Assembly (NCBI GenBank): GCA_020351995.1
Contig: CP070674.1
Coordinates: 2,018,052-2,080,582 of the forward strand
Length of the DNA: 62,531 nt
Origin: Candidatus Zixiibacteriota bacterium
Lineage (GTDB): Bacteria > Zixibacteria > MSB-5A5 > GN15 > FEB-12
Direction of reading: 5' to 3'
Both the position numbers and the translations under genes were made by a program. The notes under the pieces are model-generated. The model did not search any database. It had not been told where the DNA came from and saw only the letters and a program-made list of their open reading frames with translations. This document shows positions 44,043 to 51,595 of this stretch, one piece after another; position 1 is the first letter of the stretch, and each line of letters opens with the position of its first letter.

Positions 44043-44675
44043 ATGAAAAAAGGCAAGACGACCCAAAACGGTACTTACCATAACCTTGCCGATGAAAAGG
44101 ACGAACAGCACGTTAAGAAGCTTGTGGCCGAAATAAAAAGAGGAAACAAGCTTGCCTTTACTGAACTGGTTAATCGATATCGGAGCCAGGTAGCCTCGCT
44201 GGCTTATAAGATGGTAGGTGACTATGACGAGGCAGCCGATATCACGCAGATAGTCTTCGTGAAAATGTCCAAGAATATCTGGAGATACGACGAAAAGAAG
44301 AAGTTTTACACCTGGCTTTACCGCATTACCGTCAATGCGGCCATCGATTACATTCGAAAGCACAAACGGCACCGTCATGAACCCCTCGACAATTTCCGGG
44401 AAACCATCGAGAATATGCAGGGCGATCCCGAAATAACATATCGCCAGCAGCAGATCAATGATTTCATAGCCGAGGCCACCAAGTCGCTCAATGAGAAACA
44501 GAGATCGGCGTTTATACTGCGCGATGTTGAGGGGTGCAAGATCGATGACGTGGCCAACATCATGAACATGCCCGAAGCCACCGTCCGCTGGTATCTCCAC
44601 CGGGCCCGGACCAAGGTCCGCAAAGAACTTATGCGCAACTGCCCCCAGTTGTTGATCCTGCTCGGCATTAAGTAA
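44043..44675 (+). CDS. ECF-type sigma-70 family RNA polymerase sigma factor
   Basis: 210 residues from ATG 44043 with GAGGG upstream. Region 2 ([30 protein letters not shown] ... [17 protein letters not shown]) and region 4 ([20 protein letters not shown] ... [16 protein letters not shown]) are clear, with nothing between typical of larger sigma factors. No anti-sigma gene is adjacent; the next gene is a copper ATPase, 41 bases downstream. It directs RNA polymerase to stress or envelope genes, unidentified here. Confidence 0.9.
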
Positions 44676-44716: not shown

Positions 44717-46930
44717 ATGACGAAAGTATCAGAACTAAATCTAAGAGTCGATGGTATGCACTGCGCCAGTTGCGTCAGCAGCATCGAAAGATCGGTCGGT
44801 GAGATGGCCGGTGTGCGCCAATGCCGCGTCAATCTTGTCACCGGCTCGGCTACGGTAACCTACGATCGGGGTACTGTCAGTGACGCCGGGATTGTCGAAA
44901 AGATCAGGACTCTCGGCTTTAAGGCGCAAGCGGGAACTCCTGACATACTTGCCTCAAATATCTCAGAGGAAACCGCCGCCCGCAGGGCTTTCTGGTCAGC
45001 TTTCGCCGTTACGATGCCCCTGATGCTTCTGGCCATGTGGCCCGGGGGATTTCTTATTGGCAAGATGATCGACGGAGCGATACAGGGTATAATTGCGGCT
45101 ATCGTGCTGTTCTATGCCGGGCGCCGAATCCTGGCCGATGCCTTAACCCAAACCCTCCACTTGCGGGCTAACATGAACAGCCTGATTGCTATGGGCACAC
45201 TGGCGGCCTTTGGCTGGAGCTGGTATGTCCTGTTCTATTCGCAGCCGGTTGAACAAATGCCGCAATTGTACTTCGATTCGTCGGCTATGATAATTACTCT
45301 GATACTCCTCGGCAGGTATCTTGAGGCGACAGCCAAAGGCAAGGCCGGTCAGGCTATCAAGGCTCTCCTGAAACTCAGACCGTCGCGTGCGCTTGCGGTA
45401 ATAAAAGGTGTTGAAACCGAAATCGATGTTGATTCGGTGCGTCCCGGTATGGAACTGATCGTCAGACCCGGAGAAAAGATTCCCGCCGACGGAAAAATTC
45501 TGTCGGGCCATCCGATCATAGATGAGTCGGTCTTAACCGGGGAGTCGGTGCCGGTCGAGAAGGAAACCGGCGACAGTGTCATCGGCGGCTCGCTTAACGG
45601 CAATACCTCATTTCATATGAAAGTTACGGCATCGGGTGAGACAAGTTTTCTGGCTTCCATTATTCGTCTGGTAACGCAGGCTCAAAGCCGCAAAGCACCG
45701 GTTCAGAAGCTGGCTGATCGGGTCGCCTCGGTCTTCGTGCCCACCGTCATCTCAATCGCTCTTATAACTTTCGCGATCTGGTATTACTTCGCACCGGCCA
45801 GTCCGATGATGATCAAGAGCGTCATTGCGGTGCTGATCATAGCCTGTCCCTGCGCGCTCGGCCTTGCTACCCCAACCGCTATTCTGGCCGGAACCGGAAG
45901 AGCCGCACGAAAAGGAATAATCATCCGTGGCGGTGACATCCTGGAAAACATTGAGCGTATCGATACCGTCGTGTTCGACAAAACCGGAACGCTGACTTAC
46001 GGCAATCTGGGTGTGGTCGAAGTAAAGACTTTTGGTGACCTGTCCGAGAGAGGCCTGTTGAGGTTGGTGGGAACCATCGAGATTCAATCCGAACACCCTG
46101 TTGCAAGAGCCATTGTCAACCACGTGCGCTGGCAACAGATCGATTTCAGGGCTGGCCGGGATGCTCAAACGTATCCGGGTTTCGGCATGCGGGCCGAGGT
46201 CGACGGACATGTCTTGATGATTGGTAACAGACGCCTGATGTATGAGCACCAAATAGATTTCGGCAACACTCTCACTGTTGGTGACGGCGAAATGGAGAAA
46301 GGGCGAACGGTGGTCTGGGTAGCCCTCGACGGACGAGTGGTCGGGTTGATCACCCTGGCTGATCGCCTTCGCAGCGAGGCATCCGACGTCGTGGCGGCCT
46401 TGAAAGCTCGCGGCAAGAAGATACTCATGTTATCCGGCGACACCTTCAGAACTGCCGCCGGCGTGGCCCGGACAATCGGAATCGATGATTTCCAATCCGA
46501 GATTCGCCCGGGGCAAAAGCAAACCGTCGTCGAGGCCCTTCGCAAAACCGGTCGTCATGTGGCCGTTATCGGCGATGGCATAAACGACGCCCCCGCGCTT
46601 GCCGCGGCCAATGTCGGCGTAGCTGTTGGTGGCGGGACCGATGTCGCTGTTGAAACCGCCGGGGTGGTACTGGTCCGTCCGGAATTGAATCATATCCTCG
46701 AGATGTTCAACATCGCCGGTCGTACCATGAAAGTCATCAAGCAAAATCTCTTCTGGGCTTTCTTCTATAACGTGCTGGCGATACCTGTCGCAGCCGGACT
46801 GTTTTATCCGCTTTTCGCTTTGACGCTTTCACCGATGATTGCCGCTGGTGCTATGGCCATGTCGTCACTGTTTGTCGTCACCAACTCCCTCCGTCTCAAT
46901 CGAACCGATGTCGGCCATACCGACGGATAG
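44717..46930 (+). CDS. copA: Copper-translocating P1B-type ATPase
   Basis: 737 residues. One N-terminal heavy-metal domain with C16-x2-C19 (GMHCASC), about eight membrane helices, the membrane metal site C377-P378-C379, the phosphorylation site D421 in DKTGTLT, the HP motif (SEHPVA) and [10 protein letters not shown]. The CPC motif predicts Cu+ or Ag+ export from the cytoplasm. It may be co-transcribed with the ECF sigma gene. A respiring cell may use it for copper detoxification or for loading cuproproteins. Confidence 0.93.
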
Positions 46931-46994: not shown

Positions 46995-47023
46995 TTGACA
47001 AATCGAGCACGTTCTTATATATT
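46995..47023 (+). promoter_or_regulatory. Strong sigma-70-like promoter of the dockerin-bearing secreted protein
   Basis: TTGACA (46995-47000), a 17-base spacer and TATATT (47018-47023), eleven of twelve consensus positions. The leader to ATG 47103 would be about 73 bases. Confidence 0.75.
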
Positions 47024-47102
47024 ATTAACACTTAGAGCTTGCGCAGAAAACATTTCTGGTCCTCACCCAACAATTACCATCTTAAAGCATCGGGAGGATG
47101 TT

Positions 47103-49772
47103 ATGAGGAGGCTGGTGTTATTTACTATCGGACTGCTACTCTTGTGTCTGGCAACCACTGCCCCGGCAGAGCAGCTCGATAAAGCAGTCCACAAGAATCT
47201 CAGGCAGCTATCACAAGAGGTTGCCGACGAGCACTCCTTCGGCACGCAGACGCCGGAGAATTATCTTCGACCTCAGACGAATATGCAGTATAAGCTGACA
47301 ACCTACGTTGGCATAGACTGTGAGCTTCCCCATGAGGTCATTCGCATGAGTTTACCAGTGGCGCGCTACGCCTGGGATTTCGAATCGGATGGCGTCATTG
47401 ACTGGGAATCCAGAAACTGGGAGATAGCCCGGCATGCCTACGATAAAGAGGGTTCTTATTACGCGACCTTCTATGCCTTCGATATTCTCGGTGGACACGG
47501 TCGCGCCGAGATTTCGGTAGAAGTTCTCTCCGGCTCGGGGCAACCCAAAACGGAATCAAATGCCTTAAAACTATCCCTGACCGGAGTCGATGAGCGAAAT
47601 AAGAAAACTACCTTCTCCGTTTTTCCTGATCCTGAAAAGCGCTATTTTCTATTGATCGCCGACCACAGTGATGACTGGCTCTGGACCCCTATTGTTAATG
47701 CCTATCATCGACTGGTCGATTCGCTTGGCGCTACTGATGAAGAAATAATTGTTGTGGCGGGAGCGGCCACGGGGTTCCCTGATTATACCAGCTATCTTGA
47801 AGATACTGTTATAGTGGACTATCGTTACACTTCATACGGAGTTGATTCGGCCTTCAACTACCTTCTGGCAAATATGACTGTCAACGATGACCTTCATATC
47901 GTGAGTTCAGCTCACGGCGGCGGAAGGTACGATGAAGACGTGTTTGAGTTTGACCCCCAGTTGGCGTATCGCGCTTACAGGTTGGCCGCGGGCAGAATCT
48001 CTACTGAAGGAGATGACCCCGACCACTGTGAACTGGAGCAGGATTTCAAACTGGCTATACAGGGCTGGCAGAACGATGGCGTTCTGGAGACTCAGGTGGG
48101 TTTAAATGAATGGGCTGCCGTCTGGATCCCGTCGGAGAACGGAAGGCACACAGCCTGGAGAACCAAGCGAGTCGCCAAGTTCACCGGAATGAAGTTTGTC
48201 GGAAGCAGGATCAAGAAGGACAGTGACGTTTTTGTTGAGACAATCAAGCAGACCCTGGAAGGTGATAAGGACCGCAACGGTTATATCAATCCCGATCGAA
48301 AGGAAGTGTGGGATTACGATGGTGACGGCATTCCTCCGATTGATACCGTCGACGGGGAATACGTATATGATGAGGACGACTGGGGAGATTATGAACTACT
48401 AATTGACAACAGTGATTCGTCATGGTCCGGCGGCAATATCTATTTCGACGAGAACTTCGACGACGAGGTGGATATTTGCTATGATTGTATGGAGTTCTTC
48501 CCCAATCCTGTAGCTCACGCAACGGACTTCGGCAATGACGGTATTCTTGATCGTTGTGATCTGAATCGCGACGGCGACTGGTCAGACTACGTAGGTATTG
48601 ATGGGTGGGCCTTCAAGGGTTACGATGATGACGTGGCCGAGTTTATTGACAATCTTCAATATCGGTATGTAACGGTCACGATGCAAAACTGCTTCTCCGG
48701 TGAATTCATCGATGATCTCTCTCGCCCGAATCTCGCCATCGCGACATCGACCGTCGATGGAACGCTGGCATGGGGAACAGGTTTCGAGTCGGCCATATAC
48801 CGATCGCTCACCGGCGGACTATATACGTACGAGGATCATTTCCCGCCTGCCGAGGACAGAGTCGTGACGCTGCTCGAGGCTTATAACGAGATCTGCAATC
48901 GTGGATATACCGTGGGTGGCCGGGTCCGCTTTGATGACAACGGCGATGGAGTTGGTCATCTCTGTCCTTTGCCTGATGAAGGTGATGGCGCTCTCGCCGA
49001 CGAACTCTGCTGGGGAACCCTCCCGCCCCCCGACCCGAGGGCACCGAAGCCGGTACTAATTTGGCCGGCTCAGGATGACTGGACCTATAACGTTTACCCG
49101 ACCTTCATCTGGAGTGATACCGCCGATGCTGATTCTTTTAAGGTACAGTGGGGAAATGAAGACTTTTCAGTGTACGGATCAGGCGTCACTTATGACACTT
49201 TCTTCACGGTACCGACACACGTTTCGCCGTTGCCGAGATACGACCTTTTCTGGCGGGTTCTGGCATACCAGGCAGGTTACGCGCCTGGCGATTGGGCTGA
49301 TTCGATATCGTTTGATGTCCTGATAGATTACGATTGTTGCGTCGGTATGCGCGGCAATCTGGATGGTGACCCATTAGATAGTGTCACCGTCGCTGATCTG
49401 AATTTCCTGGTTGCATATCTGTTCCAGGGAGGACCACTACCCGACTGTATCCCCGAAGGGAACGTCAACGGTTCCGCTGGCAGTGAGACCCCGGATCTCA
49501 ACGATTATCAGTACCTTGCCGATTACCTGTACAACGCAGGTCCGCCACCGGTGCAGTGCCCCGGGTACATTTGCGGTGATGCTGACGGTAGCGGCCAAAT
49601 TGACGCCGCTGACGCCGTATTCCTCACCGACTATATATATCACGGCGGTCCGCCGCCCGAACCGATGGATGCTGGTGATATGGATTGTGTTCCCGGCGTA
49701 GATGAAGGCGATCTGGATTACCTGGTAGACTATCTATGGGAAGGTGGACCGGCCCCCTGTGACTGTGAATAA
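47103..49772 (+). CDS. Secreted PKD / caspase-fold-like / dockerin-repeat protein
   Basis: 889 residues from ATG 47103 (GGGAGG upstream; a longer frame lacks the signal peptide). A signal peptide (MRRLVLFTIGLLLLCLATTA) is followed by a PKD-like domain (about 80-150), then an alpha/beta region with AHGGG (His271) and QNCFSGEF (Cys530). These resemble the His/Cys dyad of C13/C14-type cysteine peptidases. The 259-residue gap between them, with Asp-rich Ca2+-loop-like segments (DKDRNGYINPDRKE, DYDGDG), is far longer than usual. A fibronectin-like segment and four tandem dockerin-like Ca2+ repeats (about 750-889, DADGSGQIDAADAVFLTDYI) end the chain. The latter may dock to cohesin-like partners or serve as a sorting tail. 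Confidence 0.8.
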   Translation: MRRLVLFTIGLLLLCLATTAPAEQLDKAVHKNLRQLSQEVADEHSFGTQTPENYLRPQTNMQYKLTTYVGIDCELPHEVIRMSLPVARYAWDFESDGVIDWESRNWEIARHAYDKEGSYYATFYAFDILGGHGRAEISVEVLSGSGQPKTESNALKLSLTGVDERNKKTTFSVFPDPEKRYFLLIADHSDDWLWTPIVNAYHRLVDSLGATDEEIIVVAGAATGFPDYTSYLEDTVIVDYRYTSYGVDSAFNYLLANMTVNDDLHIVSSAHGGGRYDEDVFEFDPQLAYRAYRLAAGRISTEGDDPDHCELEQDFKLAIQGWQNDGVLETQVGLNEWAAVWIPSENGRHTAWRTKRVAKFTGMKFVGSRIKKDSDVFVETIKQTLEGDKDRNGYINPDRKEVWDYDGDGIPPIDTVDGEYVYDEDDWGDYELLIDNSDSSWSGGNIYFDENFDDEVDICYDCMEFFPNPVAHATDFGNDGILDRCDLNRDGDWSDYVGIDGWAFKGYDDDVAEFIDNLQYRYVTVTMQNCFSGEFIDDLSRPNLAIATSTVDGTLAWGTGFESAIYRSLTGGLYTYEDHFPPAEDRVVTLLEAYNEICNRGYTVGGRVRFDDNGDGVGHLCPLPDEGDGALADELCWGTLPPPDPRAPKPVLIWPAQDDWTYNVYPTFIWSDTADADSFKVQWGNEDFSVYGSGVTYDTFFTVPTHVSPLPRYDLFWRVLAYQAGYAPGDWADSISFDVLIDYDCCVGMRGNLDGDPLDSVTVADLNFLVAYLFQGGPLPDCIPEGNVNGSAGSETPDLNDYQYLADYLYNAGPPPVQCPGYICGDADGSGQIDAADAVFLTDYIYHGGPPPEPMDAGDMDCVPGVDEGDLDYLVDYLWEGGPAPCDCE

Positions 49773-49911: not shown

Positions 49912-50916
49912 ATGATGGCTAGACTCGAAATCACCCCCAAAAGGGCACTCATACTCTTCATCGCTATCATAGTCGTCCTTATCGGACAGGCCGTGTGGTG
50001 GATTATCTTCATGGCCCGGCTGGTCGATGAAAAGGTCCGGATGGCTGTCGATCTCGGCGCCAGCCAAAACTTCGTGGACTTAGTGCACCAGCAGGAAATC
50101 CGCCGGCAGATTATGATCGGGAGCGAAGGTTTGTTCATGCTGGTGCTCGTCTTCGTTGGAGCCTGGCTCATATACCGGGCTCTCGTGAGAGCCGAAGAGT
50201 TGAAGTTCCAGCAACAGAACTTTCTGATGGCCGTAACCCACGAGTTAAAAACTCCTCTGGCGTCAATCAAAATCTATCTCGACACTCTCGAATCAAACAG
50301 GGTTGCGCCGGAGAAAAAAGCCCAGATCATCCCGCGGGTGAAAGAAGATGCCCGGCGCTTGGAAAAACTGGTGGAAAATGTGCTCGAAGCCGGACGGTTC
50401 GATCGCGGCGGTTATGATTTCAATCGCGAGCGATTCAATCTGAGTCAACTTGTGGCTGAAAGCCTTGGTAGATTCGATAATTACCCCTCTGAGATACCCC
50501 TTCACGTAACGAAACATCGCTTTGAACCTTCTCTCGAAATCTATGCTGACCGGGCAGCCATTAAACGTGCTATTGAAACCGTCCTTGAGAATGCGATAAT
50601 ATACAACGACAAGAAAGCCATAGAGCTCGGTATCCGCCTTTACAGGGATGACGACAGAATAGTGCTTGGCATATCGGATAACGGAATGGGTCTGCTGAAA
50701 AAGGATGTCGGGCGGATATTTGACCGCTTCTACCGTGTCGGTGAGGAAATCAACCGTAGCCGGCCCGGAACCGGACTCGGGTTGTATCTCTGCCGCGAGA
50801 TAATTCGCGCCCATTCCGGTAAAATCTCGGCCAGGTCCGACGGCCCCGGAAAGGGAACCGAGTTCACCATTAAGCTGAAAGCGAATATCAACGATGAAGA
50901 AAATATTGCTCGTTGA
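49912..50916 (+). CDS. Sensor histidine kinase
   Basis: 334 residues from ATG 49912 (49915 also possible). Two membrane helices (about 12-32 and 68-88) bracket a short periplasmic loop of about 35 residues. No HAMP or PAS follows; the H-box is directly next (NFLMAVTHELKTPLASIKIY), then N-box (ETVLENAIIYND), G1 (DNGMGLLKKDVGRIFDRFYR) and G2 (RPGTGLGLYL). It phosphorylates the response regulator encoded by the overlapping next gene. The small loop suggests sensing within the membrane or through a partner. Confidence 0.93.
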   Translation: MMARLEITPKRALILFIAIIVVLIGQAVWWIIFMARLVDEKVRMAVDLGASQNFVDLVHQQEIRRQIMIGSEGLFMLVLVFVGAWLIYRALVRAEELKFQQQNFLMAVTHELKTPLASIKIYLDTLESNRVAPEKKAQIIPRVKEDARRLEKLVENVLEAGRFDRGGYDFNRERFNLSQLVAESLGRFDNYPSEIPLHVTKHRFEPSLEIYADRAAIKRAIETVLENAIIYNDKKAIELGIRLYRDDDRIVLGISDNGMGLLKKDVGRIFDRFYRVGEEINRSRPGTGLGLYLCREIIRAHSGKISARSDGPGKGTEFTIKLKANINDEENIAR

Positions 50917-51595
50917 AGATGACCCTAACCTGGCCGATGGCCTGACCCTTAATCTCGAAGGTGAAGGCTACGAAGTTGTGCATGTCGACCACGGTAAATA
51001 CGCAGTGGATGAATTCGACCGCGGTAATTTCGACTTGCTTCTGCTCGATATCATGCTGCCGGGGATGGATGGCTTGACCATATGCAAAAAGATTCGCGCC
51101 AAAGGCTCAACCGTACCGATTCTGTTCATCACAGCCCGGGACCAGACCGAACAGAAAATCGAAGGACTCCTGGCGGGTGGCGATGACTATATCACCAAGC
51201 CCTTCGACGTCGCCGAGCTGCTGGCCCGTATCCAGGGAATCTTCAGACGCCAGGCCTGGCTGGCCTCAGGCGAAAACGTGGTAGATGAATACGCTTTTGA
51301 CGGTCGACACATCAACTTCAAGACTTTCAAAGCAACTGGCCCGATTGGATCCTTTGACCTTACTCGAAAGGAATGCATGGTAATGAAATACCTCGTCGAG
51401 CGCGAAGGGCAGGTGGTGCCACGCGACCAGCTACTTGACGCCGTATGGGGCTATCATATCTATCCCACCAACCGCACCATCGACAATTTTATCCTCAAGT
51501 TGCGTAAGGTATTCGAGGACGATCCAGCCAACCCTAAATACATAGAGACTGTGCGTGGAGCGGGTTATCGTTTTAACCTGCGGAGATTTTCCTGA
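50894..51595 (+). CDS. OmpR/PhoB-family response regulator
   Basis: 233 residues. The receiver domain has the acidic pair in LLVEDDPN, the phospho-acceptor Asp in LLLLDIMLPGMDG and Lys in YITKPFD. The C-terminal winged helix (about 140-230) shows the OmpR-type end NRTIDNFILKLRKVFEDDP ... YIETVRGAGYRF. The start overlaps the kinase by 23 bases, so the pair is translationally coupled. Targets are unknown. Confidence 0.95.
   Translation: MKKILLVEDDPNLADGLTLNLEGEGYEVVHVDHGKYAVDEFDRGNFDLLLLDIMLPGMDGLTICKKIRAKGSTVPILFITARDQTEQKIEGLLAGGDDYITKPFDVAELLARIQGIFRRQAWLASGENVVDEYAFDGRHINFKTFKATGPIGSFDLTRKECMVMKYLVEREGQVVPRDQLLDAVWGYHIYPTNRTIDNFILKLRKVFEDDPANPKYIETVRGAGYRFNLRRFS

Follow-up and report, generated by a model that had tools for sequence, protein, structure and literature searches.

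How far apart along a protein chain can the catalytic histidine and cysteine of a caspase-fold peptidase lie? The His-Cys spacing is short in caspases, legumains and metacaspases (about 40 residues in legumain), and the family models for these enzymes depend on it. In a 62,531-nucleotide stretch of a Candidatus Zixiibacteriota genome (the window hereafter), an 889-residue protein carries a histidine, His271, in the motif AHGGG and a cysteine, Cys530, in QNCFSGEF, and both motifs and the 259 residues between them were exact in the translation. The original prediction interpreted this pair as the dyad of a C13/C14-type cysteine peptidase, interrupted by a long insert. This view is supported by a model with a caspase fold and by homologues that share the insert. 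We consider it likely that the protein is a secreted, legumain-like clan CD cysteine peptidase whose active site is shaped, or access to it controlled, by a Ca2+-binding insert.

Gene and domain layout

The start codon at 47103 is preceded by GGGAGG (47092-47097). A TTGACA-17-TATATT site ends 80 bases upstream of this ATG; five promoter-like sites were observed in the region versus 3.1 expected, and as a promoter of the gene the site is suggestive only. We preferred the ATG over a longer, TTG-started frame because the latter begins on the promoter-like site. By eye, the neighbouring genes upstream (44043-44675 and 44717-46930, plus strand) resemble a sigma factor and a P-type ATPase for metal transport, and those downstream (49912-50916 and 50894-51595, same strand) a sensor kinase and a response regulator. 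A role in a defence system was rejected, as PADLOC gave no match. The features are:

46995-47023, plus strand: promoter-like TTGACA-17-TATATT, matching the consensus at 11 of 12 positions
47103-49772, plus strand: gene of the 889-residue protein, a single open frame of 889 codons plus stop, ATG start
47103-47168, plus strand: signal peptide, probably of the Sec type, in residues 1-22 (...TTAPA/EQ), as judged by eye
47349-47531, plus strand: PKD-like domain, approximately residues 83-143, Pfam PKD E 0.0012, below the cut-off
47622-47936, plus strand: clan CD core, first half, residues 174-278, ending in the motif of the catalytic His
47913-47915, plus strand: codon of His271, presumed catalytic, invariant in 8 of 8 rows, aligned to metacaspase-4 His86
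47937-48602, plus strand: insert of 222 residues (279-500), acidic, family-specific
48264-48299, plus strand: EF-hand-like loop DKDRNGYINPDR, residues 388-399
48312-48347, plus strand: Asp-rich loop DYDGDGIPPIDT, residues 404-415
48369-48383, plus strand: DEDDW motif of the insert, residues 423-427
48525-48593, plus strand: paired Asp loops DFGNDGILDRCDLNRDGDWSDYV, residues 475-497
48603-49022, plus strand: clan CD core, second half, residues 501-640
48690-48692, plus strand: codon of Cys530, presumed nucleophile, invariant in 8 of 8 rows, aligned to metacaspase-4 Cys139
49335-49769, plus strand: dockerin-like tail, four EF-type loops by eye, residues 745-889

A PKD domain had been predicted before the core and four dockerin repeats after it. 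The PKD match was found at the right place, but its 19.2 bits stay below the Pfam cut-off of 23.5. Likewise, the four loops of the tail can be recognized by eye, whereas Pfam returned one sub-threshold Dockerin_1 match (13.3 versus 22.9 bits).

The dyad is conserved in homologues with the same insert

Homologues sharing the insert, as the original prediction had called for, do exist. We analysed eight complete domains, comprising two paralogues of this genome, three other copies from the Zixibacteria group and three planctomycete copies, one of which (L021) was counted as complete though some N-terminal residues are missing. The other seven domains show 27-54% identity to the window domain. 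The alignment of all eight (A3) contains 41 invariant columns, including the His and the next Gly as well as the Cys and the Gly three residues after it; in the numbering of the window protein, H271, G272, G274, C530 and G533 are invariant in 8/8 domains. The His-Cys gap is 259, 267, 256, 251, 254, 254, 257 and 264 residues (range 251-267). With the dyad and its neighbours invariant and the gap length kept, we ruled out a chance pair of motifs.

None of the eight complete copies lacks either residue, but one fragment does: L075 has an Asp in place of the catalytic His, while its insert is otherwise kept. This counts against universal activity of the long-form family. Among the other fragments the His is kept in L076 and the Cys in L074 and L077. 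These fragments are pieces on separate contigs (L074/L076 of genome G937, L075/L077 of genome G969) and are not among the eight complete rows. The N-terminal stretch of L075 (94-2145, minus strand) looks redoxin-like by eye, and its frame ends near the contig end.

A substitution such as that in L075 would fit a catalytically dead or non-proteolytic protein, in which the insert binds a ligand and does the work, on a caspase fold kept as scaffold. Caspase homologues of planctomycetes often have substituted dyads, with Cys-His conserved in 64% according to the consulted part of PMC3501461. However, all complete copies, from two phyla, keep both His and Cys in a core that is mostly variable, and we regard a dead enzyme as improbable. 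A peptidase with a conserved dyad is the reading we prefer. As for its substrates, C13 peptidases cleave after Asn or Asp, and the residue two before the Cys helps to set P1 preference in known families. Since this residue varies freely among the eight complete rows (Q, T, Q, R, A, E, L, N), the specificity of the long-form enzymes is not predictable.

The core is closest to legumain

The structural model that had been asked for supported a caspase fold, as AlphaFold models matched legumains and metacaspases. Two models were built. The first was based on A3, that is, on the eight long-form rows only (mean pLDDT 50.5, pTM 0.56), and the second on an alignment of 16 rows (A4) that included fragments and four relatives without the insert (pLDDT 63.0, pTM 0.62). 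Because the insert-free rows guide the second model, the first represents the more independent test of the fold. Its top matches were asparaginyl ligases and legumains (Z 12.2, rmsd 3.3, 186 residues), and metacaspases reached Z 11.2. The A4 model matched legumain 4nol best (Z 18.4, rmsd 2.6, 196 residues); other matches were GPI transamidase (Z 17.4), metacaspase-4 (Z 17.2) and caspase-8 (Z 13.8). Its alignment ranges span residues 6 to 463 with about 196 residues matched, as expected for a looped-out insert. In a Foldseek search with the A4 model there was no match at E <= 0.001; metacaspase-9 and legumain ranked first (best E 1.9e-3). Model confidence was modest overall and lowest in the first part of the insert.

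The clan CD fold is a six-stranded alpha/beta sheet. In enzymes of the clan, strand 3 is followed by the His and strand 4 by the Cys, and the substrate pockets are formed in part by loop L3 (PMC4357240, consulted in part). The A4 model predicts the same arrangement on an alpha/beta sheet, in the order strand 90-96, insert, helix 335-344 and strand 349-354, with the His (domain residue 98) placed after the first of these strands and the Cys (residue 357) after the second. The dyad itself has the clan CD form, a His-Cys pair with Gly next to the His: H98, G99 and C357 of A3 are invariant in 8/8 rows. Among PDB sequences, metacaspase-4 was the best match to the A3 profile (E 4e-8), in two stretches that flank the insert. 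HG and C.SGG are in register, one stretch ending with His86-Gly of metacaspase-4 and the other holding its Cys139. From this register and the superposition on legumain, we infer that His271 remains opposite Cys530.

Family models gave a different picture. The window protein had no match to Pfam C13 or C14 even at E 10, and NCBIfam had none for the whole protein. Among the 16 domain rows, NCBIfam gave weak matches at best (E 0.009) and none for the window row. The Pfam Peptidase_C13 model (PF01650, cut-off 22.8 bits) was passed by the long-form copy L021 with 23.3 bits and also by three of the four insert-free rows (L027, L028 and L055), whereas PF00656 (C14) matched one of the eight complete rows weakly (E 0.034), which is not the window row. 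Despite its legumain-like core, the window protein escapes the family models. By fold and by the sequence of its core, it is nearest to legumain (C13). It is not a strict C13 member, since it fails both the Pfam cut-off and the spacing.

The long gap is an insertion

A search of planctomycete genomes yielded 47 partial-match loci (L027-L073), many of them insert-free C13-like matches mainly over the Cys half. We chose L027, L028, L055 and L056 for their top core scores and clear dyads. Their His-Cys gaps are 37, 37, 41 and 41 residues, and they align with the long form over the entire core; comparison of the long-form profile with L027 by hhalign gave a probability of 98.7% (E 3.7e-16) across the Cys half. 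Since these relatives share the core, the long gap represents a clean insertion of about 220 residues just after the catalytic His. Nine other loci (L029, L030, L032, L036, L047, L051, L053, L054 and L065) have a gap of 35-55 residues from HG to C-x-[SG]-G. A simple motif search did not find this pair in the remaining 34 of the 47 loci, some of which may be dyad-less relatives.

A single origin of the long form was not supported by a core-only tree of 8 long and 12 insert-free rows, which needs two changes of the long/insert-free label; a single change was seen in 10% of 200 bootstrap trees. The starred branches of the tree are compatible with one origin of the long form, and the homology among the inserts argues for common descent of the insert.

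The insert is conserved and rich in aspartate

In the eight complete rows the insert comprises 214-231 residues, 29-38 of which are Asp. The predicted Asp-rich, Ca2+-loop-like segments between His and Cys were recovered well above chance: every row contains 3-4 loops of the form D-x-[DN]-x-[DNSG]-G, compared with a mean of 0.18-0.40 in shuffled inserts, and the observed number was reached in only 0-8 of the 2000 shuffles per row. An alignment of ten inserts (A5) showed 27-44% identity to that of the window and 13 invariant columns, nine of them Asp. Invariant in 10/10 rows are D126, D128, D130 and G131 of A5, which form the D-x-D-x-D-G of the DYDGDGIPPIDT loop, and D145, D148 and W149, the D-x-x-D-W of the DEDDW motif.

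Searches with the insert reached at best E 0.92 in Pfam, with EF-hand models, and E 0.16 in the PDB, with the EF-hands of secretagogin. An EF-hand model matched one whole domain row weakly (E 0.012). Taken from its loops, the insert is probably calcium-binding. We rejected the idea that it is a mobile domain known elsewhere, as the A5 profile, run against 131 genomes of the phylum, hit nothing but the five long-form genes.

Its position between His and Cys would also suit an activation segment. Cutting of the precursor within it would give an enzyme of two chains, one with the His and the other with the Cys. Within the clan, clostripain is processed internally (PMC4357240, in the part consulted), and the A4 model is at its least ordered in the loop after the His. 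Yet 13 invariant columns in ten rows are too many for a disposable linker, and we think such a segment unlikely, if somewhat less so than a dead enzyme.

The tail is a common module of the genome

Although below the Pfam cut-off, the C-terminal tail matches certain PDB chains, which we take to be solved dockerins, at E 0.0014-0.016. In a search of the own genome, 30 of 32 places were partial matches within query residues 693-889, the dockerin-like tail. No match to cohesin (PF00963) was found at E <= 0.001 in this genome (3.6 Mb, 96.6% complete), while one of 14 control genomes had a match. Because the genome lacks a recognisable cohesin, the tail is probably not a cellulosome dockerin. Given 30 partial matches and no cohesin, it seems to be a tail module in general use in the lineage, probably for surface or matrix attachment.

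A genome with so many dockerin-like tails and no cohesin could also accommodate a transpeptidase or ligase that perhaps attaches surface proteins, in the manner of asparaginyl ligases and PIG-K, a subunit of GPI transamidase. Plant asparaginyl ligases and GPI transamidase are indeed among the best structural matches (Z 17-18). However, hydrolytic legumains score equally, the fold is silent on hydrolase versus ligase, and no substrate signal emerged. We give this possibility very little weight and retain a hydrolase.

The long form is rare

Within its own genome the window protein has a single paralogue, with which it shares 53% identity along its full length. Its domain was matched in 4 of 98 relatives' genomes, the own genome included, and a profile search across the phylum gave 4 of 132 genomes with five genes in total. 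A first single-sequence scan of genome contigs confirmed 0 of 10 pattern matches. A wide scan then yielded five loci from 218 pattern matches. Two of these (L019 and L020, Candidatus Zixiibacteriota) appear to be L010 and L012 again; the others are planctomycetal, namely L021 (Phycisphaerae), L022 (Sedimentisphaerales) and L023 (Pirellulales). Plasmid sequences gave no tblastn match, and viral contigs contained pattern matches, none of which was confirmed as a relative.

In the order of the L022 genome, 4 of 161 genomes matched at E <= 1e-20; two were already known, and in the remaining two the matches were split over contigs (the fragments L074/L076 and L075/L077). In the class of this genome, 35 of 397 genomes matched at E <= 1e-5; beyond the two known long forms the matches covered half of the core only. 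For L023, 91 of 397 genomes of the class (E <= 1e-7) and 1 of 246 of the order (E <= 1e-20) matched, and the long form was confined to its own genome in both. Thus, the long form is rare among the genomes searched and represents a small family common to two bacterial phyla. In L023 (1976-9346, plus strand) the domain is embedded in a very long frame, open over 4214 codons, that also encodes many repeated modules of surface proteins.

A putative calcium-dependent active site

We propose that the chain would leave the core just after His271, form a separate acidic domain with several loops of the Ca2+-binding type and rejoin the core ahead of the Cys530-bearing helix and strand, where the two residues could still meet. 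Because the insert leaves from the L3 loop, which lines the substrate pockets of clan CD, it may act as a lid or an exosite. If Ca2+ folds the insert and holds it in place, the enzyme would not be complete until it has been exported. According to a table in PMC4357240, several clan CD families need or contain Ca2+. A whole domain is seemingly tolerated in the loop that follows the catalytic His, and the protein would be a natural case in which to ask how calcium could control an extracellular protease through a domain between its catalytic residues. For proteins of this kind, left unnamed by standard family searches in uncultured bacteria, this suggests a testable function.

Comparison with known systems

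The fold itself is known; what sets this probable clan CD peptidase of legumain-like type apart is a family-specific insert that separates the catalytic residues. In titles and abstracts, mostly of the open literature and with MEROPS outside the search, we found no clan CD enzyme with a large His-Cys insert. Separase has an insertion, but between beta1 and alpha1 (PMC4626109, consulted in part), and in caspase-7 the spacing between His144 and Cys186 is 42 residues (PMC4357240, likewise).

With metacaspase-4 of Arabidopsis (C14B) the window protein shares the best PDB sequence match and catalytic positions in register. It differs in its spacing (53 residues from His86 to Cys139 versus 259) and in the residue two before the Cys, which is Asp in metacaspase-4 (DsC) and Gln in the window protein. 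This Asp has a known role in metacaspases and is absent from all eight complete long-form rows. The metacaspase family is activated by Ca2+, and clostripain (C11) is, like the proposed enzyme, a bacterial member of clan CD that is secreted; it requires Ca2+, and a segment within its chain is processed. However, just nine internal residues are removed from clostripain, which we compare here by its description (PMC4357240, in the part consulted).

The four insert-free planctomycete loci are the nearest relatives without the insert by core score and share the DDNGDG tail motif, but their gap is 37-41 residues and they have other flanking domains. Legumain (C13, PF01650) shares the core fold (Z up to 18.4), the His before the Cys on neighbouring strands and the HG and C-x-[SG]-G motifs, and relatives of the window protein pass its Pfam cut-off. 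In contrast, the window protein itself has no Pfam match, and its gap is 259 residues instead of about 40.
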